Origin: Chryseobacterium sp. G0186
GTDB lineage: Bacteria > Bacteroidota > Bacteroidia > Flavobacteriales > Weeksellaceae
Assembly: GCF_003815675.1 (NCBI RefSeq)
Contig: NZ_CP033918.1
Coordinates: 4,030,001-4,094,000, forward strand
Length of the DNA stretch: 64,000 bases
Reading direction: 5' to 3'
Made by a program: the position numbers and the translations under genes. Below the pieces are notes generated by a model. It was not told where the DNA came from. It was given only the letters and a program-made list of their open reading frames with translations, and did no database searches. Within the stretch, counting starts at the first letter, position 1. Each line of letters begins with the position of its first letter. Shown here piece after piece: positions 41,777 through 60,074 of this stretch.

Positions 41777-41849
41777 GGTTTCTTTAGCTTATTTGGTAAA
41801 GCGTCGGTCTGTGGAACCGAAGAACAGGGTTCGATTCCCGGAGATACCC
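41777..41849 (+). tRNA. tRNA-His (GTG)
   Basis: The acceptor GGTTTCT pairs with AGATACC (one T-T mismatch). The D arm is GCTT/AAGC. The anticodon stem TCGGT/ACCGA has loop CTGTGGA, and the T loop is TTCGATT with one mismatch in the stem. Discriminator C fits histidine, but the usual G-1 is not encoded. It is somewhat degenerate compared with a housekeeping tRNA. Confidence 0.75.
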
Positions 41850-41917
41850 AAATTGATTTCATTGCTCAAATATCGGTATTGATGTCGAAAGTGAGAGATC
41901 AGAATGATAATGCATAA

Positions 41918-41989
41918 GGTCTATTGAGGTAATGGCTAACCTGCCCGACTGTCTCTTGGGCACTGCGAGTTCGATTCTCGCATAGACCG
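41918..41989 (+). tRNA. tRNA-Asp (GTC)
   Basis: There is a perfect 7-bp acceptor (GGTCTAT/ATAGACC), anticodon stem CCCGA/TTGGG around CTGTCTC, a perfect T arm (GCGAG/CTCGC) and discriminator G, as expected for Asp. The D stem is short (AGG/CCT). Confidence 0.85.
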
Positions 41990-41992
41990 CAA

Positions 41993-42052
41993 AGATTCAT
42001 GGAAAATTTTCAGCTCCGACTGTCTCTCGGAAAAGAATATTGAAGTGAATCT
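41993..42052 (+). ncRNA. T-armless tRNA-Asp-like element
   Basis: A perfect 7-bp acceptor-like stem (AGATTCA/TGAATCT) and a perfect anticodon arm (TCCGA, loop CTGTCTC identical to the tRNA-Asp just upstream, TCGGA) are present. The D position holds GAAAATTTTC, and the T arm is replaced by about 14 nt (AAAGAATATTGAAG) without a TTC loop. It is 60 nt long, either a decayed tRNA or a minimal tRNA mimic. Confidence 0.5.
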
Positions 42053-42071
42053 GCAAAACTGGAAAGATAAC

Positions 42072-42139
42072 GGTGGTTGTTTACCCGTCTTGGACGCGGG
42101 AGGTCGCAAGTTCGAAATGCAGGGCATTCGTGAACACCA
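42072..42139 (+). tRNA. tRNA-Pro-like (TGG), D arm reduced
   Basis: The acceptor GGTGGTT/GAACACC has one mismatch and one G-U. The anticodon stem CCCGT/GCGGG encloses CTTGGAC (anticodon TGG). A TTCGAAA T-loop-like segment sits in a poor stem (GCA/TGC). Only five bases stand between the acceptor and the anticodon arm, so the D arm is missing in this fold. Confidence 0.5.
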
Positions 42140-42223
42140 TTAAAAATATGAAATAAAAGGGTGAACAATCTTGCTTTCCAGACAAAAATGCAAATGAAAA
42201 GTTAATTGTTTCAGGAGAAAAGT

Positions 42224-42281
42224 AAAAGTTTGTCGAGAGCAGAAGATCTTTACACCAAACACGAAAAACGGACAGGCTTTT
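42224..42281 (+). ncRNA. Array hairpin repeat, copy 1
   Basis: An 11-bp stem (AAAAGTTTGTC at 42224-42234, GACAGGCTTTT at 42271-42281, two G-U) encloses the conserved loop starting GAGAGCAGAAGATCTTTAC, followed by CAAACA-type sequence. Confidence 0.75.
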
Positions 42282-42342
42282 TCTTATCTCAATAAAAGAC
42301 AATTAGAATTAAAAAATATCATTTATAAAATTTTAGGTAAAA

Positions 42343-42401
42343 ATAAAGTTTGTCAAGCGCAGAAGTTCTTATATCAAACAAAAAATTAGGACAGACTTTA
42401 T
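42343..42401 (+). ncRNA. Array hairpin repeat, copy 2
   Basis: A 12-bp stem (ATAAAGTTTGTC at 42343-42354, GACAGACTTTAT at 42390-42401, one G-U) encloses AAGCGCAGAAGTTCTTATAT and CAAACAAAAAA. A run of seven T follows, so this copy could act as a terminator. Confidence 0.78.
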
Positions 42402-42468
42402 TTTTTTAATGAAAATGTAAATGAAAAGAATAATCAGTAAGGTGAATAGTACTTATTGTTTATAAAAT

Positions 42469-42550
42469 GATGGTTCGCCGAAGGGGAAGAGTCGGGGCGG
42501 TCTGCAAAACCGTTGCATAAGCTGAGTGGGTTTGAATCCCATAGCCATCT
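42469..42550 (+). tRNA. tRNA-Cys (GCA)
   Basis: The acceptor GATGGTT/AGCCATC has one G-U, the D arm CCGA/TCGG is perfect, the anticodon stem GCGGT/ACCGT encloses CTGCAAA, and the T arm is GTGGG/CCCAT with TTTGAAT. Discriminator T fits cysteine. The variable region is long (about 12 nt), unusual for tRNA-Cys. Confidence 0.8.
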
Positions 42551-42589
42551 CAAATAACTAAAATGAGATTAGTTCCGGAGAAAAAAATA

Positions 42590-42645
42590 AAAGTTTGTCG
42601 AGCGTAGAAGTTCTTATATCAAACAAAAAAAATAGGACAAACTTT
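42590..42645 (+). ncRNA. Array hairpin repeat, copy 3
   Basis: A perfect 10-bp stem (AAAGTTTGTC at 42590-42599, GACAAACTTT at 42636-42645) encloses GAGCGTAGAAGTTCTTATAT and a CAAACAAAAAA stretch. The loop is almost the same as in copy 2. Confidence 0.78.
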
Positions 42646-42681
42646 ATTTACTCCAATAAGAACTCATTACTCATTAGATCC

Positions 42682-42819
42682 GGAAGTACGCCAAAGTTGG
42701 AGAGTCAAGGCAGACTGATATGAGGAACGAATTGAATAATTCCTTTAAAAAATGAAAATAACAGATTTAAAACCTGTTGCATCATTGCTGAGTAGGTTCG
42801 AATCCTACTACTTCCACCA
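42682..42819 (+). tRNA. tRNA-Leu (TAA) with an insertion of about 45 nt
   Basis: There is a perfect acceptor (GGAAGTA/TACTTCC), a perfect T arm (GTAGG, TTCGAAT, CCTAC), discriminator A and an encoded CCA. The anticodon arm AACAG/CTGTT carries TTTAAAA. Between the D arm (GCC...GGC, ending about 42711) and the anticodon arm lie about 45 extra nt that themselves form a hairpin (AGGAA/TTCCT). It may be an intron-like insertion or a decayed gene. Confidence 0.6.
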
Positions 42820-42821
42820 AA

Positions 42822-42892
42822 CCGCTTATAATGTAATGGCAGCATGCAGGAAATGTACTCTTGTTGTTTAGGTTCGATTCCTAATTGGTGGG
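42822..42892 (+). tRNA. tRNA-Thr-like (TGT), non-canonical anticodon loop
   Basis: The acceptor CCGCTTA/TTGGTGG has two G-U and one mismatch. The D arm is ATG/CAT, the anticodon stem CAGGA/TCTTG, and the T arm TTAGG/CCTAA is perfect. The loop AATGTAC has A instead of the universal T33, so decoding ability is doubtful. Confidence 0.55.
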
Positions 42893-42899
42893 TTTTATT

Positions 42900-42971
42900 G
42901 CTCTATTCGTCTAACGGTGAGGACGCCTGCCTTTCGAGCAGAAAATAAGGGTTCGATTCCCTTATAGAGTA
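42900..42971 (+). tRNA. tRNA-Glu (TTC)
   Basis: The acceptor GCTCTAT/ATAGAGT has one G-U. The anticodon stem CTGC/GCAG encloses CTTTCGA. The T arm AAGGG/CCCTT has TTCGATT, and the discriminator is A. It looks functional apart from the 4-bp anticodon stem. Confidence 0.83.
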
Positions 42972-43071
42972 CAGGATGTGGATGAACTGGTCAATCTTGA
43001 ATTGATATTAATACCATGAAAGTTCAAATTTGAAAAAATTGGCCAGTTACCATTCACACAAAAATAGGAAA

Positions 43072-43154
43072 GAGAAAGGTTTGTCGAGCGCAGAAGATCT
43101 TTACAAACAAAAACAGGCATAATTTATATAATTTATAGTAGACAGGGCTTTCTC
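43072..43154 (+). ncRNA. Array hairpin repeat, copy 4 (extended loop)
   Basis: A 14-position stem (GAGAAAGGTTTGTC at 43072-43085, GACAGGGCTTTCTC at 43141-43154) has 13 pairs including two G-U. The loop starts GAGCGCAGAAGATCTTTACA like copy 1 and carries about 25 extra AT-rich nt. The outer pairs differ from the other copies yet still pair, which is evidence of a conserved structure. Confidence 0.75.
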
Positions 43155-43191
43155 AAACCTACAAATTATAAGTAATCTTATAAAAATAACT

Positions 43192-43264
43192 GCGGGAATG
43201 GTGGAATGGCAGACACACTTGATTTAGGATCAAGGTATTGGGGGTTCGAATCCCTCTTCCCGTA
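43192..43264 (+). tRNA. tRNA-Leu (TAG), short variable loop
   Basis: The acceptor GCGGGAA/TTCCCGT has one G-U, the D arm is GTG/CAC, the anticodon stem CTTGA/TCAAG is perfect and encloses TTTAGGA, and the T arm is GGGGG/CCCTC. Discriminator A. The variable region is only about five nt, whereas bacterial tRNA-Leu normally has a long variable arm. Confidence 0.82.
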
Positions 43265-43363
43265 CAAAGGCTGAATGATGAATAATAGGTTTTAAAATTT
43301 ACCGCGGATCATTCACTTATCAATTATTAAATATAAACGATCAATTATAAATATGTAGAAAAA

Positions 43364-48608: not shown

Positions 48609-51128
48609 ATGCTTATTGAGGCGGAGTTTAAGGCAATATATTTAAACTATAAAGTAAAGGAAATTGTTCCATTTCTTAAAAAGCTTACACTACAAGACAA
48701 AAGAGAGGTAGCTTCCATTTTAAAGAAACACATCAATAAAGAATGGGGGCACAATACAATCTCGGTGGTGGCTGCTTTGGCATGTAGCAAAACGAAGGAG
48801 GAATATGAAAAAATAAAACCGGGATATTATTCCATTCCGGATCACCTCATTGATGAGCTCTTTCAATCCTATGTTCCGGAGTGGGTGGGAGAAAGCCATT
48901 TATTTTTAGAAGGATTTGATTATCTGAAAGTATTGGAATGGGAGCAGAAAGGCTATTTTACACTTAATGAAGAGGTATGCGCCTCATTACTTTCATCTTC
49001 ATCGAAATCCGATGAAGTTTTGTTTACCTACCCCGTTACAGTAGAATCTCATATCTGGCTTTTATTCAAGTATGAATGCAGCGTCACGGGATCTTACCAA
49101 GGTAGAAATTGGAAAGATATTTTGAAAAACCTTGTTCAGGATCATAAGATTGAACGTATTAAAGTCTTACAATCAAGTCTTAACGCGATGAGTATCAATC
49201 TTTCAAAAGACCATAATACATGGTTTCTGGAGCTTTTTATGTACCTGGAACCTACAGATCAAGAAATTGTAGAATTACAGGATGAGTTGTTCATGATCTT
49301 TCATTCTACACAGCAATCTTTATTTCCGGGAGTCTTAAAAATTGTAAATCCGATAGTCACTGAAAGTAATTTTAAGACAGAAGATTTTTTACATGCAACA
49401 GCATCGTTGATGACCATTCCTACGAAGAATATCATCAATGCACTGCTTCAGACCTTAGAGAAAATAGCAAAGAACAATAAAGAATATCATCAGGAAATTT
49501 GTTCGCTTTTGCTGCCTGTTTTTCTGAACAAAGAAAATAGTCTGCAGACAAAAGGAGCAAAAATTCTGGCGAAATATGGTGATCCTGATTCAGTGGAGAT
49601 AAGGAAGGAATTAATGTTCTATAAAGGATCTGTTCTTTCAGATGCCCGAACCTTATTGGAAAAGTTTTTTGTTGAAAAAGATTCTTCTGAAACTGAGGAA
49701 GAGAAGACTTATAAAGAAATGCCATGGCATAACCCACAGCCCATTCTGCCTATAGAATCAGCAGACGATTTTATATTTTTGGCTTCACAGATATTCAACA
49801 ATAATGAAACCTATCATTTTGATTTGTTTTTAGATGCCTTGGTAAAGTTTAACGAAGATTTTCAAGAAGACCATTTTAATCAGCTTGAACCTGCTTTTAA
49901 AGCTGCGTTGAAAAGAAAAGAAACCGGCGGACTTCATCATTTGCTGGCAACATTTCTTATTCATTATGGTTTATTGAAACAGAAAAAGAAATCACAGGTT
50001 TTGCTGGATGCTCGTTTGGGCTTTCCAAGCCTTGATAACTGGAGCGAAAAGAAAACTCCTCTTATCTTCAAGGCATACCACCAGTTTTTACTGGGTATTT
50101 TTGAATTATTAAAGCAAAATAAAAAACTTCCGGTTCTTTCAGTTCCGGATCATACCCCTTGTTGGATTAACATTCATACTCTTGTTGATAAGTTGAAAAT
50201 TTATCAGAAGCAGAATGAACAACCCATACCTTTTGACCTGCAGATCGCCGTACTTCGCGTTAAAAAAGAAAATCTGACAAATGCCGAAGAATATGCAAAA
50301 AAACAGCTTAAAAAAGAGTATTTTGATCTTTTGGAACCAGTCTTCAATCCAAACTATTTCAAAGACCAATATAAAAAGGAATATTTGGAAGGTAACTTTG
50401 ATTGGGAGCTAGGATACAGGAAAATTTATAAGTGGAATGCTACAGAAGAGATTCCGCAAGTTTTGATTACCATTGAAAACAAGAAAGAGCTTCCTGAAAA
50501 TGCACTTCTTTTGGATTATTTATTCAACTCTTATCATGGTGTTTATCATAATGACCTGATCCATATTTTATATTTAGCACCCTATTTTTCAGGATCTATT
50601 GTTGCGAAAAAGCATAATGAAGATTTGTCAAATGCTGTTTACCAGTATGATATCAAAGGAAATATAGACTTCCTTGATGCATGGATGAAACTTAACTTAC
50701 CTTTCCAGCCTGTACATTATTTATTTCTGTCCGCAGGACTGTTTAATAAAAATAAGACGCTCTCTGGTATGGCTTTTGAAGTCTTAGTAAACAAGGCAGT
50801 TTCCGAGGATTTCGGAGTACAGGAACTGGGAATATTGATTGGTAAAAAAATCAATTTTGAATGGGCACCTGTAAAACGATTTACAGATGGTTTATCAGGA
50901 TTTATTAATTTGAGTACCAGTCATAACCGTTTTTTTGAGAAATTGCTGATTTCCATTCTTTCAGCGATTGAAAAACCTGTTTTTAACCTTAAAAAGCTTT
51001 TGGAGCTGTACTATGAGCTACTCAGCCAAAATCAAAATAAGGTAGATAAAACCATTAGCAGTTTGCTTATAGAATGGGAAAAAGAGAATAACCTGAAAAA
51101 AATTATACATCAAATTAAAAACCAATGA
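48609..51128 (+). CDS. DUF6493-like large helical protein, copy 1
   Basis: 839 aa, almost all helical with HEAT-like repeats and no membrane segment. The N-terminus VKEIVPFLKKLTLQDKREV and the C-terminus EWAPVKRFTDGL followed by KPVFNLKKLLELYYELL align with the next protein, so the two are paralogues. They resemble a Bacteroidota family that sits next to SWIM zinc-finger proteins and, in other genomes, MoxR and vWA genes. The molecular role is unknown. The stop overlaps the next start (ATGA). Confidence 0.7.
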   Translation: MLIEAEFKAIYLNYKVKEIVPFLKKLTLQDKREVASILKKHINKEWGHNTISVVAALACSKTKEEYEKIKPGYYSIPDHLIDELFQSYVPEWVGESHLFLEGFDYLKVLEWEQKGYFTLNEEVCASLLSSSSKSDEVLFTYPVTVESHIWLLFKYECSVTGSYQGRNWKDILKNLVQDHKIERIKVLQSSLNAMSINLSKDHNTWFLELFMYLEPTDQEIVELQDELFMIFHSTQQSLFPGVLKIVNPIVTESNFKTEDFLHATASLMTIPTKNIINALLQTLEKIAKNNKEYHQEICSLLLPVFLNKENSLQTKGAKILAKYGDPDSVEIRKELMFYKGSVLSDARTLLEKFFVEKDSSETEEEKTYKEMPWHNPQPILPIESADDFIFLASQIFNNNETYHFDLFLDALVKFNEDFQEDHFNQLEPAFKAALKRKETGGLHHLLATFLIHYGLLKQKKKSQVLLDARLGFPSLDNWSEKKTPLIFKAYHQFLLGIFELLKQNKKLPVLSVPDHTPCWINIHTLVDKLKIYQKQNEQPIPFDLQIAVLRVKKENLTNAEEYAKKQLKKEYFDLLEPVFNPNYFKDQYKKEYLEGNFDWELGYRKIYKWNATEEIPQVLITIENKKELPENALLLDYLFNSYHGVYHNDLIHILYLAPYFSGSIVAKKHNEDLSNAVYQYDIKGNIDFLDAWMKLNLPFQPVHYLFLSAGLFNKNKTLSGMAFEVLVNKAVSEDFGVQELGILIGKKINFEWAPVKRFTDGLSGFINLSTSHNRFFEKLLISILSAIEKPVFNLKKLLELYYELLSQNQNKVDKTISSLLIEWEKENNLKKIIHQIKNQ

Positions 51129-53821
51129 AAGAAAGACTTTATGAAATTCTTAATGAGGAAAAAATACATGAGATCATCCCTTTTTTGAAACAGCTAACTG
51201 TAGAAGAAAAGAAAATATTAGTACCCACGATAAAGAAAATGGATCGTGAGATCAGTAAGATGGTCATGACCAAGAATTCTTATCATACTGCTGGTTCCGT
51301 GAATCAACATTCCATTATTGATATTGCATCATTTGTCTGTATGGATCAGAAGAACTTTGGTAAGAATTACTGGAGCCTCTTCCGAAATATTGAACAGACA
51401 GAGCAAATCTTGGAATGGGGATGTCCGGATTGGTTTTCAGACTTTATCAATGATTCCATTGATGCTGAATTCACGGCCTTTAATTATCAGCATATTTTAG
51501 GATGGACAGAAAAAGGGTACGTACAGCCTAAACCTGAATTGTTGGGGCATCATTTGAGTAATTATCCCTCTGATCTGGATGACCATCCTGAGACACTTAA
51601 TACCCATTTCTGGTATCTGTGTGAATTCCCATCCAAGTCGTTACCATTCCGTAAAGAATGGTTTCCATTGGTGCAAAAACTTATCACAGAGCAGAAGATA
51701 GAGCGAAAAAGATTTCTAAAAGAATGTCTTTTGGCTGCTAACAGAAACTTTAATAAGAATGTAACAGGCTGGTTTATGGATGCATTTACGACATTAAAAC
51801 CAACTGAAGAAGAATTAATTGATCTTCAGGACGACCTGCTTGCCGGCTTGGCCTCTGCACAGTCCAAAGCTATTAATACCATTCTTGTTCATATGAAGAA
51901 GATTGTAGGATTACCTGCTTTTAAAAATGGTGATTTTTCACATTATCTTCCTAATTTGCTAAGTTCAGAAGTTAAAACGGTGGTCATTGCCAGCCTAAGC
52001 TTAACCGAAAAAATATTTCAGCACAAAAAGCTTGATCCTGAAATGTTGGGCATAGCGTTAAGTTCTGCATTTGTTAGCAAGGATGACAGCATACAGTCGA
52101 AAGTGGCAAAAATTATTCTGAAATATATCCCAGCCTCTGAAAACATAAAAGAGGCACTTTCTCATTATTCAGATAATATTCTGACGAATGTACGCCCTGT
52201 TTTAGCAAAATATATTGAAGAAAAACAAACGGAACTTGAAGCTATAACTTCTGAAAAGTTATCACTGACTGCTGAGGAAAATAAAATCAAACAGCTTGAA
52301 AGCTTTGAAGATTTAATGTTTTTTCTTCCACTGGCTATAGATGATCCATACAGTTTCCATTGTGATGTAGCCTTAGCTGGCTTTATCCGCTTTGCTAATG
52401 ATGCTGATGCAGAATCTGTAAAGCTCATAGAACCGGTATTTCTTAAAGCCTGTAAAACAATTGCCAAATGGGAGGTTCCTTATTTGAATGTTTTACTGTG
52501 CAATCTGATCATCAATTATGGATTAAGTTTATTGAAAAAGTATCCGATCCAACTTAAAAACCTGGAAAAGATCTATCAAAAAACGTGTGATGATGAAGCT
52601 TCAAGAGAAATCTATTCAAATTACCAGAAAAAAATTGGTCCGGTAGAAAAAATAGGTACAGGAAGTATTACAACCAAGGCGTTCAAGGAATTTGCAATTT
52701 ATGCTTATCAGAAGATAACGTCAGGAAATGATACCCCACTGATGTTTACAATCACCCATTCTCCTTGTTGGATTTCACCGATCAGCTTAGTAGAAAGATT
52801 TGAAATTTATCAAAATAAAAATATAGAACCTCACCATCTGGATGTTCAGTTGGCATTGCAGCGTTGTGCCTTAGATGATACCTCAGAAGCACTGGAACAG
52901 GTAAAGAAAAGATTAAAGGGAGAATACAAGGAACTATTACTTTTCTTTTTTGATAAGGATGCGAATCCTAAAGGAAACTTTGAGCATCTATCATGGTGGA
53001 TGACAGCCGGGCTTACCCGTTCGCCAGAGATGGTGTTTGATGAATTTAAAAGCTTTGGATATGACGATATCCCTGTAGAATTCCTTTCAGGAAATTATGA
53101 ATGGAAAACAATTGACAGTAAGAAAAATTCATACTATCCTGCTGAATTGAATATTACTATTCCTAAATATGATATTGTAGATAGAAAAGAACCTTTGTTT
53201 CTGGAATATTTTATTGCCGAGCAAAAGGAGCTTTCTGAAATTCCGGCAATGATGTGGTGTTTTCCAAATACGCCAGCCAATGGACTTGTAAAAGTAATTA
53301 AGAACTGTTTGTTCTATTCAGGAATTGCTGAAGTGTATGAAAGAAATTTAGTTTTAAATACCTCACAGGCACTTTATCAAATTAAAAAACCTTTGGATGG
53401 AATGGGCTACCTGTTTCTTGGAACTATTTTCCTGGATGGAGATAAGACCATTCGTGGAACAGCTGCTGAAATCTGGTTGGAGCATGTTTCCTATCAGATG
53501 ATTGACAATGCACAACTGGGTAAGGTAATCGGGCTGCATGAAAAACTGGAGTGGGCGCCTGTTAAAAGATTAACAGACCTTATACAGCATCATATGCTGA
53601 ATGTCAGTAAAAATCATAACATAGCGATTGAAGAGCTGATTACCAGTATATTGCTTCAAATGGGAGAGCCTGTTACCAATTTGAAAAAACTATTGGAGGT
53701 TTACCATGAAGTATTAGGCTTAAACCAATCGGAAGCCAATAAAGAGATATTAGAAAAACTAAATAACTGGAAAGAAAACTCTAGTCTGAAAAAAATCTGC
53801 AATCTTCTTCTAAAAAAATAA
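51125..53821 (+). CDS. DUF6493-like large helical protein, copy 2
   Basis: 898 aa, paralogue of the preceding gene. Matching blocks include IHEIIPFLKQLTVEEKK at the N-terminus, ITHSPCWISPISLVERFEIY in the middle, and EWAPVKRLTDLI with TNLKKLLEVYHEVLG at the C-terminus. Tandem copies with diverged middles suggest a heteromeric complex. It starts within the stop of copy 1, and the SWIM gene follows after 3 bp, making a tight three-gene operon. Confidence 0.7.
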   Translation: MKERLYEILNEEKIHEIIPFLKQLTVEEKKILVPTIKKMDREISKMVMTKNSYHTAGSVNQHSIIDIASFVCMDQKNFGKNYWSLFRNIEQTEQILEWGCPDWFSDFINDSIDAEFTAFNYQHILGWTEKGYVQPKPELLGHHLSNYPSDLDDHPETLNTHFWYLCEFPSKSLPFRKEWFPLVQKLITEQKIERKRFLKECLLAANRNFNKNVTGWFMDAFTTLKPTEEELIDLQDDLLAGLASAQSKAINTILVHMKKIVGLPAFKNGDFSHYLPNLLSSEVKTVVIASLSLTEKIFQHKKLDPEMLGIALSSAFVSKDDSIQSKVAKIILKYIPASENIKEALSHYSDNILTNVRPVLAKYIEEKQTELEAITSEKLSLTAEENKIKQLESFEDLMFFLPLAIDDPYSFHCDVALAGFIRFANDADAESVKLIEPVFLKACKTIAKWEVPYLNVLLCNLIINYGLSLLKKYPIQLKNLEKIYQKTCDDEASREIYSNYQKKIGPVEKIGTGSITTKAFKEFAIYAYQKITSGNDTPLMFTITHSPCWISPISLVERFEIYQNKNIEPHHLDVQLALQRCALDDTSEALEQVKKRLKGEYKELLLFFFDKDANPKGNFEHLSWWMTAGLTRSPEMVFDEFKSFGYDDIPVEFLSGNYEWKTIDSKKNSYYPAELNITIPKYDIVDRKEPLFLEYFIAEQKELSEIPAMMWCFPNTPANGLVKVIKNCLFYSGIAEVYERNLVLNTSQALYQIKKPLDGMGYLFLGTIFLDGDKTIRGTAAEIWLEHVSYQMIDNAQLGKVIGLHEKLEWAPVKRLTDLIQHHMLNVSKNHNIAIEELITSILLQMGEPVTNLKKLLEVYHEVLGLNQSEANKEILEKLNNWKENSSLKKICNLLLKK

Positions 53822-53824
53822 ATT

Positions 53825-55168
53825 ATGGAAGATACGCTTACTTACAACTATTCCAGAACATCCTCATTGACAAAGAAAGATACTCTGGAAGAACTTTTTC
53901 TCGCCCAATATAGCGAGATACAGAAAAATACAAATGTTCCCTGCTTTTTTTGGGGGAACGTGGGACAACCTTTTATTTTAGCCCGTTGCCTGATTACACT
54001 CTCCAATATTGTGAAGTCAAGCTTTAATCTTTCACCGTTTCAAATGTCCTTACTAAAGGATCCTATTGTAACAGCTGGAAATCAAAGGTTGCGTTTTGAA
54101 GGATTTTCTCACTGTGCAGGAGTTTATGCAAGAGTAGACGTACTGCCGGATGGTTTGGATGGAGAGTTTCTGGAAAACGGAACAACCAATGTGGATTTCA
54201 ACCAACCTATGATAACCGCGTTGGGAAGCATTCGTCCTAATGAAAAAATTATGCTTTCGGTAGGGGAAAAAGAAGTTGGATTATACAAGGAAGAAGAAAA
54301 GGTAGTGGAAAGAAAAGTTCCATTGCCTACAAAATGGATTAAAGGGTTGGGAACCGTTCAGCTATACCTTTCCGAATCAGAGAAACAGCATACTTTTAAT
54401 AAGATTCAGACCCAGCAACTGTTCAGAGGAATGCCAAAAGGAGTTGTGAAATCTGACTATTACCTTATCATAAGAGGAAATAAGCCTATGTTTTCACCTG
54501 TAAAATCCACAGATGCTGTTTGTATCGGAGGACTTCACAGGCTTCGTTTGCTGGAACCATTACTTCCGTATATAGATTATATGCAGGTTTTTCCACATTC
54601 CAACATGCAGTCTACTACCTGGCAGCTTTATATGGGGAATATTAAATTTAGTTTCTCCCTATCAAGAGAAAGCTGGAGAGGATTTTCAGGGGAGGGTGCT
54701 GTATTGAATAGCCTTACCACAGAAGTGCCTGATGAATGGATTGATGCGTTGGATAAGTATGCCTATGCCAACCAGTCATTCAATGCAACGGTTTTAGCAT
54801 TAGAAGAAAACCTGAGCCTGAATACAGCAGAGAATATTACAGGAAGACTTGCAGCAATGGGGTTATTGGGGTATGATCTTGATGATAATGAGTTTTTCTA
54901 CAGAAGATTACCCTTTAAGCTCAGCCGAATCTTAGGTTTAAATCCAAGGATGAAAAATGCTGAAAAGTTGATTGAAGACGGAAAAGTAGAAATCTTAAAT
55001 AATAATAAAAAAAGAACGGAAGCTAGAGTAGCAGGTACTGGAGTGCATCATACCGTTATCATTGAAGAAGAAAAAGAACGTTGCACCTGCGAGTGGTTTA
55101 GTAAGTACCAAGGCGAAAGAGGTTCTTGTAAACATGTTTTAGCAGTAAAAAAACTTGTAAATAGTTAA
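53825..55168 (+). CDS. SWIM zinc-finger protein
   Basis: 447 aa. The SWIM motif CxCxnCxH is at the C-terminus (about residues 419-437), seen as RCTCEWFSKYQGERGSCKHVL. The rest is a mixed alpha-beta domain with ARVDVLPDGLDGEFLENG and IDYMQVFPHSNMQSTTW. SWIM domains bind nucleic acid or protein. In enterobacteria a SWIM protein (YehQ) sits with a MoxR ATPase and a vWA protein, which links this operon to the MoxR-vWA genes at 33-41 kb. Confidence 0.82.
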   Translation: MEDTLTYNYSRTSSLTKKDTLEELFLAQYSEIQKNTNVPCFFWGNVGQPFILARCLITLSNIVKSSFNLSPFQMSLLKDPIVTAGNQRLRFEGFSHCAGVYARVDVLPDGLDGEFLENGTTNVDFNQPMITALGSIRPNEKIMLSVGEKEVGLYKEEEKVVERKVPLPTKWIKGLGTVQLYLSESEKQHTFNKIQTQQLFRGMPKGVVKSDYYLIIRGNKPMFSPVKSTDAVCIGGLHRLRLLEPLLPYIDYMQVFPHSNMQSTTWQLYMGNIKFSFSLSRESWRGFSGEGAVLNSLTTEVPDEWIDALDKYAYANQSFNATVLALEENLSLNTAENITGRLAAMGLLGYDLDDNEFFYRRLPFKLSRILGLNPRMKNAEKLIEDGKVEILNNNKKRTEARVAGTGVHHTVIIEEEKERCTCEWFSKYQGERGSCKHVLAVKKLVNS

Positions 55169-56019: not shown

Positions 56020-56055
56020 TGCGCAAAAAGAATGCGTAATACTGTTTTTACTTTG
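56020..56055 (+). promoter_or_regulatory. Dyad operator plus -7 element upstream of TROVE gene
   Basis: TGCGCA-N7-TGCGTA at 56020-56038 lies 9 bp before TTACTTTG (56048-56055), a one-mismatch -7 element. Both sequence and spacing match the sites at 30747 and 58346. Confidence 0.7.
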
Positions 56056-56115
56056 CATCAGAAATCAGGGAGAACATAATAACTCTTCTAAATGTTTAAC
56101 AAAAAACAGTAACTC

Positions 56116-57633
56116 ATGAAATTTAATTTTTTGAAAAAAGAAAATAAAATAGTTTTGAACTACGAAGGAGCAAAAGCATATGTGATGACTCCTGCAGAAG
56201 AATTGTATAGTGCTGTGGTTACAACAGGACTCTCTAACATAACCTATGAAAAAGGGAATGACAGATTACAGAGAATACAATCCCTGATTAAGAAAAATGA
56301 TCCGGAATTTGTAGCAAAACTAGCTATTTATGCAAGGAAAGAGATGTACTTGCGTTCCATTCCGTTGGTCTTGGCTACAGAGTTGGCGAAAGAGGCTTCC
56401 GGTTCAGACCTGGTGAGTAAAACAGTAGACGGAATTGTTCAGAGAGCAGATGAAATCACTGAACTTTTGGCCTATTACCAACTTGCCAATGAAAGAACGG
56501 AAATCAAAAAACTTAACAAACTGTCTAAGCAGATTCAAAAAGGATTGGTAAAATCATTCAATAAGTTTGATGAATATCAGTTTGCAAAATATAACAGAAA
56601 AACAGAAGTAACCCTGAAAGATGCTTTGTTTCTGGTGCATCCAAAAGCAAAGGATGAAAATCAACAAGTCATTTTCAATAAAATTGCCAATGATATGTTA
56701 GAGACACCATACACATGGGAAGTTGAACTTTCTGTACTGGGACAGAAAAAATTTGCGAATGAAGCAGAAAGAAAACAGGCTTTCAAAATCAAATGGGAAG
56801 AACTGATCTTCAGCAATAAGTTGGGGTATATGGCCATCTTGAGAAACCTGAGAAATATTCTGGAAGCAGAAGTATCGCCTGAAGCAATGAACAAAGTTTG
56901 TCATTATTTGGCTGATGAAAGAGCAGTAGGTAATTCAAAGCAGCTACCATTCCGTTTTCTGGCAGCATACAGAGAATTGAAAACCATCGATTCACCTTAT
57001 CTGTCTTCCATATTGGAAGCTTTGGAAAGTGCTGTGATGCTGAGTGCTAAAAATATAAAAGGCTTTGGCCTTGATACCTCTGTTGTAATAGCGGCTGACG
57101 TTTCAGGATCAATGCAGAAATCAATTTCGCCAAAAAGTAAGGTTTTACTTTATGATATTGGTTTACTGATGTCAATGATCTTGCAGTCACAATGTAAAAA
57201 TGTAGTCACAGGAATGTTTGGTGATCGTTGGTTACGTGTTCCAATGCCTAAAAATAGTATCCTGAGAAATGTAGATGGATTCTACAAGCGTGAGGGAGAA
57301 GTTGGGTATTCTACAAACGGTTATCTGGTCATTGAAGATCTGATCACAAGAAAAGAAGTTGTGAATAAAGTAATGCTGTTTACAGACATCCAGATGTGGG
57401 ATAGTTCCGGAAACAAAAATTCTTTTGAAGATTCATGGAATAGGTATAAAACGATAGCACCTGATGCTCAACTCTATATTTTTGATCTTGCGGGCTATGG
57501 CAGACAACCCATTGATGTGAGAAGAAATGACGTATACCTTATTGCAGGTTGGTCAGACAAGATTTTTGAGGTCCTGAATGCCTTGGAAGACAAAAAATCT
57601 GCCATGGAAATGATAAAAAGAGTAGTGCTGTAG
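56116..57633 (+). CDS. rsr: TROVE-domain protein, bacterial Ro60 orthologue (Rsr)
   Basis: 505 aa. The N-terminal two-thirds are TROVE HEAT-like repeats (KNDPEFVAKLAIYARKEMYLR, IPLVLATELAKEASG). The C-terminal vWA domain begins at about residue 320, with an intact MIDAS DVSGSM near residue 327 and MLFTDIQMWDSSG. Ro60 proteins form a ring that binds Y RNAs on its outer face and misfolded or damaged RNA ends in its cavity. They assist RNA decay and repair after stress. Y RNA genes lie 1 kb downstream, and a stress-type operator precedes the gene. Confidence 0.92.
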   Translation: MKFNFLKKENKIVLNYEGAKAYVMTPAEELYSAVVTTGLSNITYEKGNDRLQRIQSLIKKNDPEFVAKLAIYARKEMYLRSIPLVLATELAKEASGSDLVSKTVDGIVQRADEITELLAYYQLANERTEIKKLNKLSKQIQKGLVKSFNKFDEYQFAKYNRKTEVTLKDALFLVHPKAKDENQQVIFNKIANDMLETPYTWEVELSVLGQKKFANEAERKQAFKIKWEELIFSNKLGYMAILRNLRNILEAEVSPEAMNKVCHYLADERAVGNSKQLPFRFLAAYRELKTIDSPYLSSILEALESAVMLSAKNIKGFGLDTSVVIAADVSGSMQKSISPKSKVLLYDIGLLMSMILQSQCKNVVTGMFGDRWLRVPMPKNSILRNVDGFYKREGEVGYSTNGYLVIEDLITRKEVVNKVMLFTDIQMWDSSGNKNSFEDSWNRYKTIAPDAQLYIFDLAGYGRQPIDVRRNDVYLIAGWSDKIFEVLNALEDKKSAMEMIKRVVL

Positions 57634-57800
57634 CAGGCACTGTTCTTTAAGACGATCAAATAATTAGTTTAATAAAAACATAGCTATAAAAGTTATCGGT
57701 AACGATCCGGTATTTGCAGATGTTGTACGAATTTGAATTATAATTATTGATGTTATAAAGAAACTTTTACAAACTGCGAGAGTTTTAAATAAAAAATAGG

Positions 57801-58331
57801 ATGATGAAAAATCTATTTTACAAAATTGAACAAGATATTAAAGAAGGGAGAAAGAAAAAGGCCTGTGACAGGCTAAGGAATATGATTAATCAGTTTCCCA
57901 ATGATATTTCCCTGAGAAGAAAACTAGGACAGATTTATTTTGAAGCAGGATTTATTGATGAAGCAGGTAAATTTTGGATTCTTTCTACACCTGAAAATAT
58001 TGAAATGGAAAAGGCTGTAGAGATTTACAGAAAATCTTTAAGAAATTCAGGGAATGCTATTTTGATGGATATTGTGTTCAGAGGAAGCAAAGAGATGTTG
58101 GATGAATATGCTAAGAGAGTTATGATAGAACTTGAGCGAGATAGTTTTGAAAGAACAAAATATATTCCTGATTTTAAACCAAAATTTAAAGATAAAGGTA
58201 ATTATTCAGAACCTGAAGCCAAGAATAAATTTCTAAATGCTATAGGGTTTTATATGTTGGGTATAATAATAATTTTACTTCCAATTTTAGGGGTTTTTAA
58301 ACTGTTTGAACTTATAACCTCATTTTTTTAG
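57801..58331 (+). CDS. DUF6584-like protein with C-terminal membrane helix
   Basis: 176 aa. The first 110 residues look TPR-like (KACDRLRNMINQFPNDISLR, LGQIYFEAGFIDEAGKFW), as in DUF6584 proteins. A membrane helix lies at about residues 150-172. It sits between the TROVE gene and the Y RNA region on the same strand, 167 bp after TROVE. A role in this system is possible but rests on location only. Confidence 0.6.
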   Translation: MMKNLFYKIEQDIKEGRKKKACDRLRNMINQFPNDISLRRKLGQIYFEAGFIDEAGKFWILSTPENIEMEKAVEIYRKSLRNSGNAILMDIVFRGSKEMLDEYAKRVMIELERDSFERTKYIPDFKPKFKDKGNYSEPEAKNKFLNAIGFYMLGIIIILLPILGVFKLFELITSFF

Positions 58332-58345
58332 AAATAAAATTCAAC

Positions 58346-58381
58346 TACGTAAAAAGAATGCGCACTAGCCCAATACCTTTG
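58346..58381 (+). promoter_or_regulatory. Dyad operator plus -7 element before the small gene and Y RNAs
   Basis: TACGTA-N7-TGCGCA at 58346-58364 lies 9 bp before TACCTTTG (58374-58381), a perfect -7 element. The central seven bases (aaaagaa) are the same as in the TROVE operator. Downstream, a 13-codon mini-ORF (58402-58443) precedes the gene at 58462. Confidence 0.7.
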
Positions 58382-58461
58382 TAAACGTAAAACTAATAAC
58401 TATGATTTTTTATAAACCCAATCTTAAAGGAGCAGTGTATTGAAGTTAATATTCAATACTC

Positions 58462-58683
58462 ATGAAAAATACAAAACCTTTAAGACACACTCTCGGAATC
58501 AATGAATATGGATTAATTGATTTTCCATGGAAGATCTCCGGAAGACAGATCTCAAGAATTATATATGGAAGTAAAATGGGTTGTTCACATTGTTTTCCTC
58601 ACGGCTGGGAAGTCGTGAATGCAAAATATATAAAATTTCAGCGTAACTGGAAAAAATACAGAAGAACCCAGTGGGAAAATTAA
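58462..58683 (+). CDS. Small basic protein of the Ro60/Y RNA locus
   Basis: 73 aa, strongly basic (KFQRNWKKYRRTQWEN at the C-terminus) with a GCSHCFPHGWEV motif that could bind metal. The stop codon directly abuts the first Y RNA, so both are probably on one transcript from the operator-controlled promoter at 58346. I do not recognise the family. Basic charge and location suggest an RNA-binding partner of the Y RNAs or Ro60, as inference. The leader holds a short stem (TTGAA/TTCAA) before the ATG. Confidence 0.6.
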   Translation: MKNTKPLRHTLGINEYGLIDFPWKISGRQISRIIYGSKMGCSHCFPHGWEVVNAKYIKFQRNWKKYRRTQWEN

Positions 58684-58815
58684 AGGTAAGTGCCGTAAAA
58701 CAGAGTTACTTCGTTAGGGTAATGGTAGCGCAGGTTCAAATCCTGCTCTGCAAAAAGCAGATGGTGTAAAGATAGCACTCCGTTAATAGTCTCTGTTTGA
58801 TTCATTGCCTTACCT
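58684..58815 (+). ncRNA. yrlA: Y RNA a (YrlA-like) with permuted tRNA module
   Basis: The basal stem is AGGTAAG/CTTACCT (7 bp), followed by the Ro-type motif TGCCGTAAAACAGAGTTACT and a second stem AAACAGAG/CTCTGTTT (8 bp). Inside, in this order, are a T arm (GCAGG, TTCAAAT, CCTGC), a capped acceptor stem (TCTGC, five A, GCAGA) and a D arm (GTG/CAC). The order T-acceptor-D is the permuted tRNA-like module known from bacterial Y RNAs. Confidence 0.78.
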
Positions 58816-58817
58816 AA

Positions 58818-58959
58818 TATCAAGTGTCGTTTTGGAATCATACTTCGAGATTTTAAACATTGGGTCGCAGGTTCGAGTCCTGCCTTTTCCCTCGAAAAGG
58901 AGATGTAGCTCAGTCGGTAGAGCAGATGCACGGACGATTCTAAGAGTATTACCTTGATA
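58818..58959 (+). ncRNA. yrlA: Y RNA b (YrlA-like) with permuted tRNA module
   Basis: The basal stem is TATCAAG/CTTGATA (7 bp, different bases from copy a but still paired), with motif TGTCGTTTTGGAATCATACT and second stem GGAATC/GATTCT. The T arm is GCAGG, TTCGAGT, CCTGC. The acceptor CTTTTCC pairs with GGAGATG across an 8-nt linker (one mismatch, one G-U). The D arm is GCTC/GAGC. Confidence 0.78.
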
Positions 58960-58968
58960 ATTTTAAAT

Positions 58969-59121
58969 AAACAAGTGCCGTAGAATAGTGTTACTTCGAT
59001 CATCACGACGGGGGCACGGGTTCGAGTCCCGTCTCTTCCACAACAAAAAAACACAGTCATTATAGGAAGAGTAGCTCAGTTGGTTAGAGCACGACATCAC
59101 TTTTTGCTTGTCGCCTTGTTT
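58969..59121 (+). ncRNA. yrlA: Y RNA c (YrlA-like) with perfect permuted acceptor
   Basis: The basal stem is AAACAAG/CTTGTTT, the motif TGCCGTAGAATAGTGTTACT, and the second stem AATAGTG/CACTTTT (one mismatch). The T arm is ACGGG, TTCGAGT, CCCGT. The 3' acceptor CTCTTCC pairs perfectly with the downstream GGAAGAG across a linker of about 25 nt. The D arm is GCTC/GAGC with an AGTTGGTTA loop. This is the clearest permuted copy. Confidence 0.82.
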
Positions 59122-59135
59122 TCTTTACAAATAAA

Positions 59136-59268
59136 TGCAAAGTGCCGTTAGGAAAAAATCCATCGTACGCAATTTGGGGAGGAATAGCGAAGTCGGTAAC
59201 CCCGGCAAGGCTATCCGGTTCGATTCCGGCCAACGTAGCCCCAGGTTTTTCCTTATTTTGCCTTTACA
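59136..59268 (+). ncRNA. yrlA: Y RNA d (YrlA-like), divergent D-before-T module
   Basis: The basal stem is TGCAAAG/CTTTACA (one mismatch), the motif starts TGCCGTTAGG, and the second stem is AGGAAAAA/TTTTTCCT (8 bp). The inner part has GGGG/CCCC enclosing a D-loop-like AGTCGGTA, then GGCTA/TAGCC enclosing CCGG, TTCGATT, CCGG. The tRNA-like parts occur in normal order (D then T), unlike the other copies. Confidence 0.68.
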
Positions 59269-59303
59269 AAAAAAGCCGATATATTATGTGTCGGCTTTTT
59301 TCG
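59268..59303 (+). terminator. Terminator of the Y RNA array
   Basis: AAAAAGCCGA and TCGGCTTTTT form a 10-bp stem with an 11-nt loop and a T6 tract, right after Y RNA d. It overlaps the 3' end of the convergent HTH gene and may serve both strands. Confidence 0.88.
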
Positions 59304-59634
59304 TTGAATCTTCAAGCTCATTCTCAAACATCAGTTTCCATTTTGTAAGAGTCGTTCTGCTGATCTTATATTTTTTAGACATATAACTGGTAGAATGGCC
59401 GTGCTTCTTTTGATACTGAAGAAGCTTGAGCATTGTTTTTTTGTCATAAGTCTTAAGCTTTTGATTATTTTTCTGGCTTTCCCGGGAGGATTTGAAAAGT
59501 TTTTCATTGAACTTAAGTACATCTTCAGTGGTATCCAGTTTTCCAAGAAGTTCCTTGATCTTCGGATCCTTTAATTTGTCCGGATATTCAAGCTTGAGCA
59601 TATCCTGGTAAATCTTTTTATAATTGGGACGCAT
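59284..59634 (-). CDS. Small HTH protein (transposase OrfA-like)
   Basis: 116 aa. A C-terminal helix-turn-helix (STSYMSKKYKISRTTLTKWK) is preceded by a Lys-rich helical region. The overall look is that of IS3-type OrfA or HTH domain proteins, but no OrfB or IS ends are nearby. It is followed after 11 bp (upstream) by a second HTH gene on the same strand. Such pairs occur in several Chryseobacterium genomes. Function is unknown. Confidence 0.6.
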   Translation of the reverse strand: MRPNYKKIYQDMLKLEYPDKLKDPKIKELLGKLDTTEDVLKFNEKLFKSSRESQKNNQKLKTYDKKTMLKLLQYQKKHGHSTSYMSKKYKISRTTLTKWKLMFENELEDSTKKADT

Positions 59635-59645
59635 TTCTTATCAAT

Positions 59646-60074
59646 TTATCCGTTTATATTATCACTTTTCTGAAGCCATCTGTGAAGAGTGCTTTTAGGA
59701 ATCGAATATTCCTTAATCACTTCGCTCTGTGTCATTTCACCCGAAAGAATTCTTTTCATAATAAATTCCTTAATTTCCTGAGTGTAAATGTTTTTTCTGA
59801 AGTAAGGAATTTTATCTGATTTCTGCTGACTTTTGTTGACAGCCGATGGAGGGGCATATAAAATAAGATGTGAACTGTAGAGTCTGAAAAAATCATATTC
59901 CAGTAATTTGCTCCATCTTAGAAGAAGGTCCGAATCTATGGATTTGCTTTCATACATGTTTTCCACAGCATCTTCATTCCTGTCCAGAAATTTACATATC
60001 CTCTCCACTGTTATTTCGTTCTCATCTACCCTTTCCTTAATAAATTTTCCAATATGGATCTCTTTGTATAACAT
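59646..60074 (-). CDS. Small HTH protein (transposase-like regulator)
   Basis: 142 aa. An N-terminal region (VERICKFLDRNEDAVENMYES) looks like a degenerate helix-turn-helix. The C-terminal part (SGEMTQSEVIKEYSIPKSTLHRWLQK) is a clear helix-turn-helix. Together with the downstream neighbour it may be a domesticated transposon regulator. It is divergent from the SulP gene, with a 633-bp gap between them. Confidence 0.62.
   Translation of the reverse strand: MLYKEIHIGKFIKERVDENEITVERICKFLDRNEDAVENMYESKSIDSDLLLRWSKLLEYDFFRLYSSHLILYAPPSAVNKSQQKSDKIPYFRKNIYTQEIKEFIMKRILSGEMTQSEVIKEYSIPKSTLHRWLQKSDNING

Follow-up and report, generated by a model that had tools for sequence, protein, structure and literature searches.

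The Ro60 locus of Chryseobacterium sp. G0186

We analysed a 64-kb stretch of DNA (hereafter, the window) from the 5.04-Mb genome of Chryseobacterium sp. G0186 (genome G000), which contains a gene for a Ro60 protein of the TROVE family followed, on the same strand, by a tandem array of four Y RNA-like units. Coordinates are positions in the window, and the main features of the locus are as follows.

56116..57633, +: Ro60/Rsr (TROVE) protein of 505 aa with the metal ion-dependent adhesion site (MIDAS) residues; from Pfam, a PDB profile search and Foldseek.
58684..58815, +: unit 1 (class 6), common frame plus a permuted module, with the T half nearest tRNA-Tyr and the D half nearest tRNA-Gln.
58818..58959, +: unit 2 (class 1), whose tRNA-like module is permuted and has a short acceptor loop.
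58969..59121, +: unit 3 (class 4), whose tRNA-like module, again permuted, has a 7-bp acceptor stem (GGAAGAG/CTCTTCC) and a long A-rich linker starting with ACAA.
59136..59268, +: unit 4 (class 5), a non-permuted module of two hairpins on the common frame, one covarying (ATAGC/GCTAT, GTCGG/CCGGC) and one T-arm-like.
59269..59305, +: terminator-like hairpin and T run directly after unit 4; from folding.

A first, sequence-only reading of this DNA had proposed a TROVE protein with an intact MIDAS, and the identification holds. The gene product matches the Pfam TROVE family with 105.3 bits (cut-off 23) and is the sole TROVE protein found encoded in the genome. Residues D328, S330, S332, T400 and D424, which we take to be the MIDAS of the vWA domain, are invariant in 15 sequences, from the window and 14 relatives. 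Profile searches of the PDB retrieved the Ro ribonucleoprotein 1yvp, presumably from Xenopus, with an E value of 9.9e-7, and human RO60 with 4.7e-5. Likewise, a weak structural model (pLDDT 61.7) gave 13 PDB matches in Foldseek with E ≤ 0.001, including Deinococcus Rsr (2nvo); all were Ro60/TROVE entries, with TM scores of only 0.38–0.47, so that the predicted structure would back the assignment at the level of the fold only, and the protein may adopt the HEAT-repeat ring plus vWA fold.

Four predicted RNA units with a common frame

The four units lie exactly where the sequence-only reading had placed them, separated by 2 (units 1-2), 9 (2-3) and 14 nt (3-4), and the last one is followed by a hairpin that, folded as 59262-59305, reaches −18 kcal/mol (z −6.3). 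As deduced from class alignments, they are built on a common frame consisting of a basal stem ending in AAG/CUU, a bulged U, a GY/RC continuation of the helix, CGU, a second stem and ACUUCG, with URC ahead of the closing strand. We searched for this frame with a strict descriptor (first stem, TGYCGT, second stem and TTCG or CATCG). Applied to 61 loci, the window among them, it retrieved 332 units downstream of Ro60, versus two on the reverse strand and none in the upstream and gene part of the same loci; eight of the 61 loci, all of divergent TROVE relatives, had no unit. On both strands of the window this descriptor found three of the four units, missing unit 3, and nothing else. Looser thresholds, chosen partly so that unit 3 would enter and with units overlapping the next one dropped, recovered all four and gave 11 sequence clusters with at least two members.

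That the basal stems differ between units and still pair had been read as covariation, and comparisons among relatives agree. For the classes of units 1 to 4, members were cut to 111–164 nt (33 of 38, 52 of 52, 41 of 43 and 38 of 40, respectively) and distinct sequences were aligned (32 of 32, 42 of 52, 37 of 40 and 34 of 38). Paired cells amounted to 95.2, 97.3, 97.6 and 96.9%, and 16, 10, 9 and 20 pairs were changed on both sides; none of 500 shuffles, which do not correct for relatedness, was as high on both measures in any of the four classes. Further pair types were not exceptional for the classes of units 2 and 3 (83 and 175 of 500 shuffles), the D stems of both are invariant within their classes, and the basal stem of the unit-3 class, with no pair changed on both sides, varies too little to tell. 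Since the search itself demanded a paired basal stem, its pairing across the 379 units is partly built in. At the Y-R pair past the bulged U, the search restricted one position to C or U and the other to A or G without asking that they pair, and the 379 units contain 193 C-G, 167 U-A, 19 U-G and no C-A combinations; this pair therefore covaries. Together, our results indicate that covariation among relatives supports all four unit classes.

Permuted tRNA-like modules

The frame had been said to carry tRNA-like arms in every unit, which stands for units 1 to 3 and only in part for unit 4. In the first three units the order of the elements is T arm, acceptor stem and D arm, a circular permutation of a tRNA, and the modules differ from each other. 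Compared with 44 distinct tRNAs, predicted with ARAGORN in fetched stretches of the same genome, the T and D halves are nearest to the tRNAs for Tyr and Gln in unit 1, Pro and Phe/Gly (a tie) in unit 2, and Asp and Met in unit 3, where other tRNAs come almost as close for either half. The D half of unit 3 matches at 21/21 positions and the T half of unit 2 at 21/22. In unit 4, the T-arm-like hairpin is the only part clearly resembling a tRNA; its covarying hairpin matches any tRNA only weakly. We rejected the possibility that the units are ordinary tRNA genes, since ARAGORN calls none there, and the match to the tRNA family RF00005 (58899-59040, 142 nt) bridges the 5' half of unit 2 and the 3' half of unit 3.

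Arrays in related bacteria

A Ro60 scan of 229 relatives kept 80 loci (L259-L338) from Chryseobacterium, Epilithonimonas, Flavobacterium and other Flavobacteriales; some of their genomes are shared with our other set of loci (L033-L078 and others), and the two are thus not independent. Within the genus, 48 of 60 genomes, our own included, match the Ro60 query, two of them only through a divergent paralogue and two only through a short piece. In the 80 loci, the looser descriptor found 466 units versus four on the reverse strand. Where 3 kb or more of downstream sequence is available (78 loci), each locus contains 2–11 units, with a median of six, and the largest array that we found, in a congener (L071), has 13. 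Four tandem units, once thought unusual, are thus fewer than the median, and we discarded the idea that the array is special to this genome. Among 19 loci from other families of the phylum (L182-L200), six contain 4–7 units and 13 contain 0–2, with two reverse-strand hits.

The same frame can also carry a module of a different kind. Units of about 228 nt with a stretch resembling 23S rRNA occur in 11 of 81 loci (L035, L045, L051, L053, L058, L059, L061, L067, L068, L070 and L071) and in 11 of the 80 loci L259-L338 (e.g. L262), the genomes of both sets overlapping; they were counted by sequence because the looser descriptor gave no cluster of this length. The match to 23S rRNA reaches 33 of 33 bases (L051), in a region that we take to be around helix 69/70, and the 17 distinct sequences align over a conserved core of about 200 nt. 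In Rfam, the unit from L051 gave one weak hit (E 0.72). The genome of strain G0186 is without such a unit: the exact 16-mer occurs seven times, none near the array.

Some congeners (L073-L076, L258) contain a divergent second TROVE gene, 32–37% identical and without Y RNA units. In several relatives, a 279-aa open reading frame (ORF) without Pfam match is inserted between units of the array (for instance, L033 2974-3810). Rfam searches at gathering score of the loci from 12 relatives returned no YrlA, and a tRNA in one and Flavo-1 (RF01705) in three; the latter lies just after Ro60 on the opposite strand (~2280-2370, −) in L035, L057 and L071, and is absent from the window.

An operator before Ro60, the array and rtcB

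The sequence-only reading had also suggested an operator at this locus. The motif recurs beyond Ro60, before the array and before a gene for the RNA ligase RtcB, and these two occurrences, as well as the 23S-like unit of relatives, add to what that reading contained.

56020..56038, +: operator copy 1 (TGCGCA-N7-TGCGTA), upstream of Ro60.
56048..56055, +: predicted −7 box TTACTTTG, 9 nt past operator copy 1.
58346..58364, +: operator copy 2 (TACGTA-N7-TGCGCA), upstream of the array.
58374..58381, +: predicted −7 box TACCTTTG, 9 nt past operator copy 2.
G000:C1:4708348 (locus L251): operator copy 3, directly before the RtcB gene (Pfam RtcB).

All three copies of this palindromic 19-bp operator are followed, 9 nt further on, by a −7-like box; we take TANNTTTG to be the Bacteroidota −7 consensus, from which TTACTTTG differs at one base. 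The pattern RCGYAAAAAGAATGCG occurs exactly only at Ro60 and at the array, with no one-mismatch site in the genome, and with two mismatches it has 22 sites versus seven for the reversed pattern. The wider pattern TRCGYANAANNANTGCGYA adds one more site, making three in 5.04 Mb, and its reversed version is found in none of 18 genomes. This third operator is 27 nt before a 464-aa ORF identified by Pfam as RtcB; the next larger ORF there, of 260 aa, has no Pfam match. With three sites at the pattern searched, we rejected a wide regulon in this genome. RtcB is about 620 kb away from the array, so that Ro60, the Y RNAs and RtcB are not in one operon, though they have the same operator. The regulator RtcR (PF06956) was found in none of nine genomes, our own included, and was found in the Escherichia coli control.

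In 77 of the 80 loci L259-L338, a site of the operator form lies no more than 200 bp ahead of Ro60; the gap to the box is 9 nt in 63 of these sites and different in seven, while the remaining seven have no recognised box. Downstream sites of the same loci show the 9-nt gap in 70 of 92 cases, and the operator was seen in 12 of the 19 loci of other families. In other genomes it is also found ahead of genes for RlaP (RNA repair pathway DNA polymerase beta family), a further RtcB and a paralogous TROVE protein, and four Ro60-lacking congeners have 0–2 sites each. We conclude that the operator motif is real.

Further sites in other genomes precede genes for TatD (L253) and for a short-chain dehydrogenase/reductase with Sir2 downstream (L254), ORFs that by eye are Hsp90-like (L257) and ATPase-like (L237), and a 115-aa ORF (L225). 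The second TROVE gene shares the operator in G019 and G022, and in L258 it is followed by an RlaP-like gene.

Proposed role and alternative explanations

Our analysis confirms what the sequence-only reading observed at this locus and supports in part how it was interpreted. The four tandem Y RNA-like units share one predicted Ro60 handle and differ in their modules, and on balance we consider them likely to be interchangeable adaptors that link Ro60 to enzymes handling tRNAs or other structured RNAs. This proposal draws on analogy with the Deinococcus Y RNA that tethers Rsr to polynucleotide phosphorylase (PNPase) and with the induction by tRNA fragments of the Salmonella operon rsr-yrlBA-rtcBA, both described in passages of PMC7790460. 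Likewise, because the same DNA site lies before all three, Ro60, the array and the predicted RNA ligase likely work together on damaged RNA. Since the spacers of 2–14 nt leave no room for separate promoters, a single transcript starting at about 58.38 kb would be processed into the four units, and a single regulator sensing RNA damage may read the operator, so that the units would be produced together with RtcB upon RNA damage. Each unit would then bind Ro60 at the handle end and use the module to bring in a partner (PNPase, for example, by analogy with Deinococcus), and damaged or cleaved RNA might be degraded or passed to RtcB.

In favour of this proposal are the frame shared by every unit, the covariation in all four classes, the operator common to Ro60, the array and RtcB, and the way in which the units keep to Ro60: the 12 Ro60-bearing congeners tested have 2–6 copies of the unit motif each, 37 in total and all, judged by coordinates, no more than a few kb past the Ro60 match on its downstream side, and 12 Ro60-lacking congeners have one copy in all. 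Several observations weigh against these ideas. Unit 4 contains CAUCG (CATCG in DNA) in place of (A)CUUCG. Single-sequence folding, with slightly different boundaries, gave z −3.27 for unit 1 and unremarkable values for units 2 to 4 (−1.33, −0.18 and −1.15), which are unconvincing on their own. Counts of units and cells overstate the independent evidence, because the sequences share ancestry and the structures behind the counts came from the alignments being scored or from the units of the window. A match of all four units to the YrlA covariance model (RF02553) had been named as a check, and none reaches the gathering score of 69 bits (33.7 for unit 3, 32.6 for unit 2, 22.1 for unit 1 and no match for unit 4); we thus rejected that they are plain members of this family. 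Also, the term "stress" derives solely from the company of RtcB and RlaP. Finally, the unit motif has a chance background, its reversed pattern yielding 15 matches among the 12 Ro60-bearing congeners and 5 among the 12 lacking Ro60.

The main rival explanation, which we regard as unlikely, is that the units are decoys baiting tRNA-cutting toxins or nucleases (or, in relatives, those acting on the 23S site), sparing the real targets, with Ro60 only stabilising the RNA. The close copying of real tRNA halves by the modules (21/21 and 21/22, see above) and of rRNA by the 23S-like unit (33/33) would fit, as would the operator common to the array and RtcB, and Hughes et al. suggest, in a passage of PMC7790460, that YrlA could inhibit an anticodon nuclease. 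Nevertheless, the permuted units are without an anticodon arm, the usual target, and passages of the same article report no YrlA cleavage fragments in Salmonella, although a competitive inhibitor need not be cut. Less probable still is that unit 3 is processed by excision of its linker into a two-piece RNA, as in permuted tmRNA, whose free acceptor end would receive CCA and might be charged. All acceptor pairs with letters on both sides are indeed paired in its 37 sequences (one being gapped at three of the seven pairs), the acceptor is followed by A and then C in all but one of the 37, the linkers measure 6–28 nt and start with ACAA in 15 and ACCA in five, and a permuted-tmRNA match covers the unit below threshold (23.9 bits, cut-off 47). 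Yet CCA is not the most frequent linker start, and the YrlA module that was crystallised reportedly closes its acceptor end with a loop. We give very little credence to the idea that the units arose from tRNAs as selfish or decaying repeats, came to lie beside Ro60 by drift and lack function as RNA. Their pieces do derive from tRNAs, their number varies from 2 to 13 across Chryseobacterium-type loci and other ORFs are found between them in relatives; against this, compensatory changes occur in four classes at levels reached by none of 500 shuffles, the presence of units follows that of Ro60 in 24 genomes, and the operator spacing is mostly fixed.

Extending the adaptor proposal, we tentatively suggest that Ro60 in Bacteroidota could be a programmable platform, with a constant bulged-helix handle and exchangeable baits copying tRNAs and, in some Chryseobacterium, 23S helix 69/70, co-induced with RtcB through a dedicated operator, such that one class of ribonucleoprotein might inspect or salvage many damaged RNAs. 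These arrays offer, in named species, a natural series in which a constant handle stands side by side with many modules, the rRNA-like one included, and the swap or deletion of single units would link each module to its partner. In genomes in which we did not find RtcR, the operator joins Ro60 and the Y RNAs to RtcB, which points to a putative RNA-repair regulator.

Comparison with known systems

Chen, in 2014, reportedly described Y RNAs close to Ro60 in over 250 species, and animal Y RNAs bind Ro through a bulged helix. The protein encoded in the window matches animal Ro60 profiles. The sequence-only reading had likened the RNA motif to the Ro-binding strand of vertebrate Y RNAs; what the alignments show is a basal helix that runs on past a single bulged U, in the manner of the bulged helix of the animal RNAs. 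Ro60, Y RNAs, their tRNA mimicry and permutation, and the link with RtcB are already known. In particular, the module of bacterial Y RNA is described as circularly permuted in PMC11472068. Like YrlA, the units described here lie beside Ro60, form a basal stem with their 5' and 3' ends and, in units 1 to 3, carry a permuted module. Unlike YrlA, units 1 to 3 remain under the gathering score and unit 4 is unmatched, the arrays are larger than the pair of Y RNAs in the Salmonella operon, and modules unlike a tRNA also occur on the frame.

As in the Salmonella operon rsr-yrlBA-rtcBA (PMC7790460), Ro60, Y RNAs and RtcB appear under one type of control. Here, in contrast, there are three separate predicted promoters, with RtcB ~620 kb off and RtcR in none of nine genomes, and a palindromic operator beside a TANNTTTG-like box, so that sigma-54 would have no role. 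The Ro60 fold and Y RNAs with a basal stem are shared with the Rsr-Y RNA-PNPase complex of Deinococcus radiodurans, according to parts of PMC7790460 and PMC8394870, from which our case differs in having several module types per genome. In the literature searched, at the level of titles and abstracts plus parts of PMC7790460, PMC8394870, PMC11472068 and PMC7765460, we found no large arrays on a common frame, variety of modules with an rRNA-like one or dedicated operator; likewise, no paper on Y RNA arrays in Chryseobacterium or Flavobacterium was found by title or start of abstract. Earlier mentions of either are possible.

Neighbouring genes

Two further ORFs lie between Ro60 and the array.

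57801..58331, +: DUF6584 protein of 176 aa; from Pfam.
58462..58683, +: ORF of 73 aa whose last base adjoins the start of unit 1; 12 protein hits.

By eye, some relatives have ORFs like the DUF6584 gene on the downstream side of Ro60. Five of the seven named hits of the 73-aa ORF are from Chryseobacterium, and a similar ORF precedes a unit in four of the eight relatives compared. It has no known domain in Pfam or NCBIfam, though its source label is "phosphate ABC transporter substrate-binding protein". NCBIfam gave no match for the five proteins scanned.

Beyond the array, and convergent with it, two helix-turn-helix-like proteins of 116 and 142 aa (59284-60074, −) are candidate regulators; both have counterparts beyond the array in four of eight relatives, and one of the two in a fifth. 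Upstream of Ro60, Pfam identifies two DUF6493/DUF7824/DUF7825 proteins and a SWIM zinc-finger protein (48609-55168). Further upstream, at 41777-43265, there is a cluster of tRNA genes for His, Asp, Thr, Glu and Leu, some with low covariance scores.

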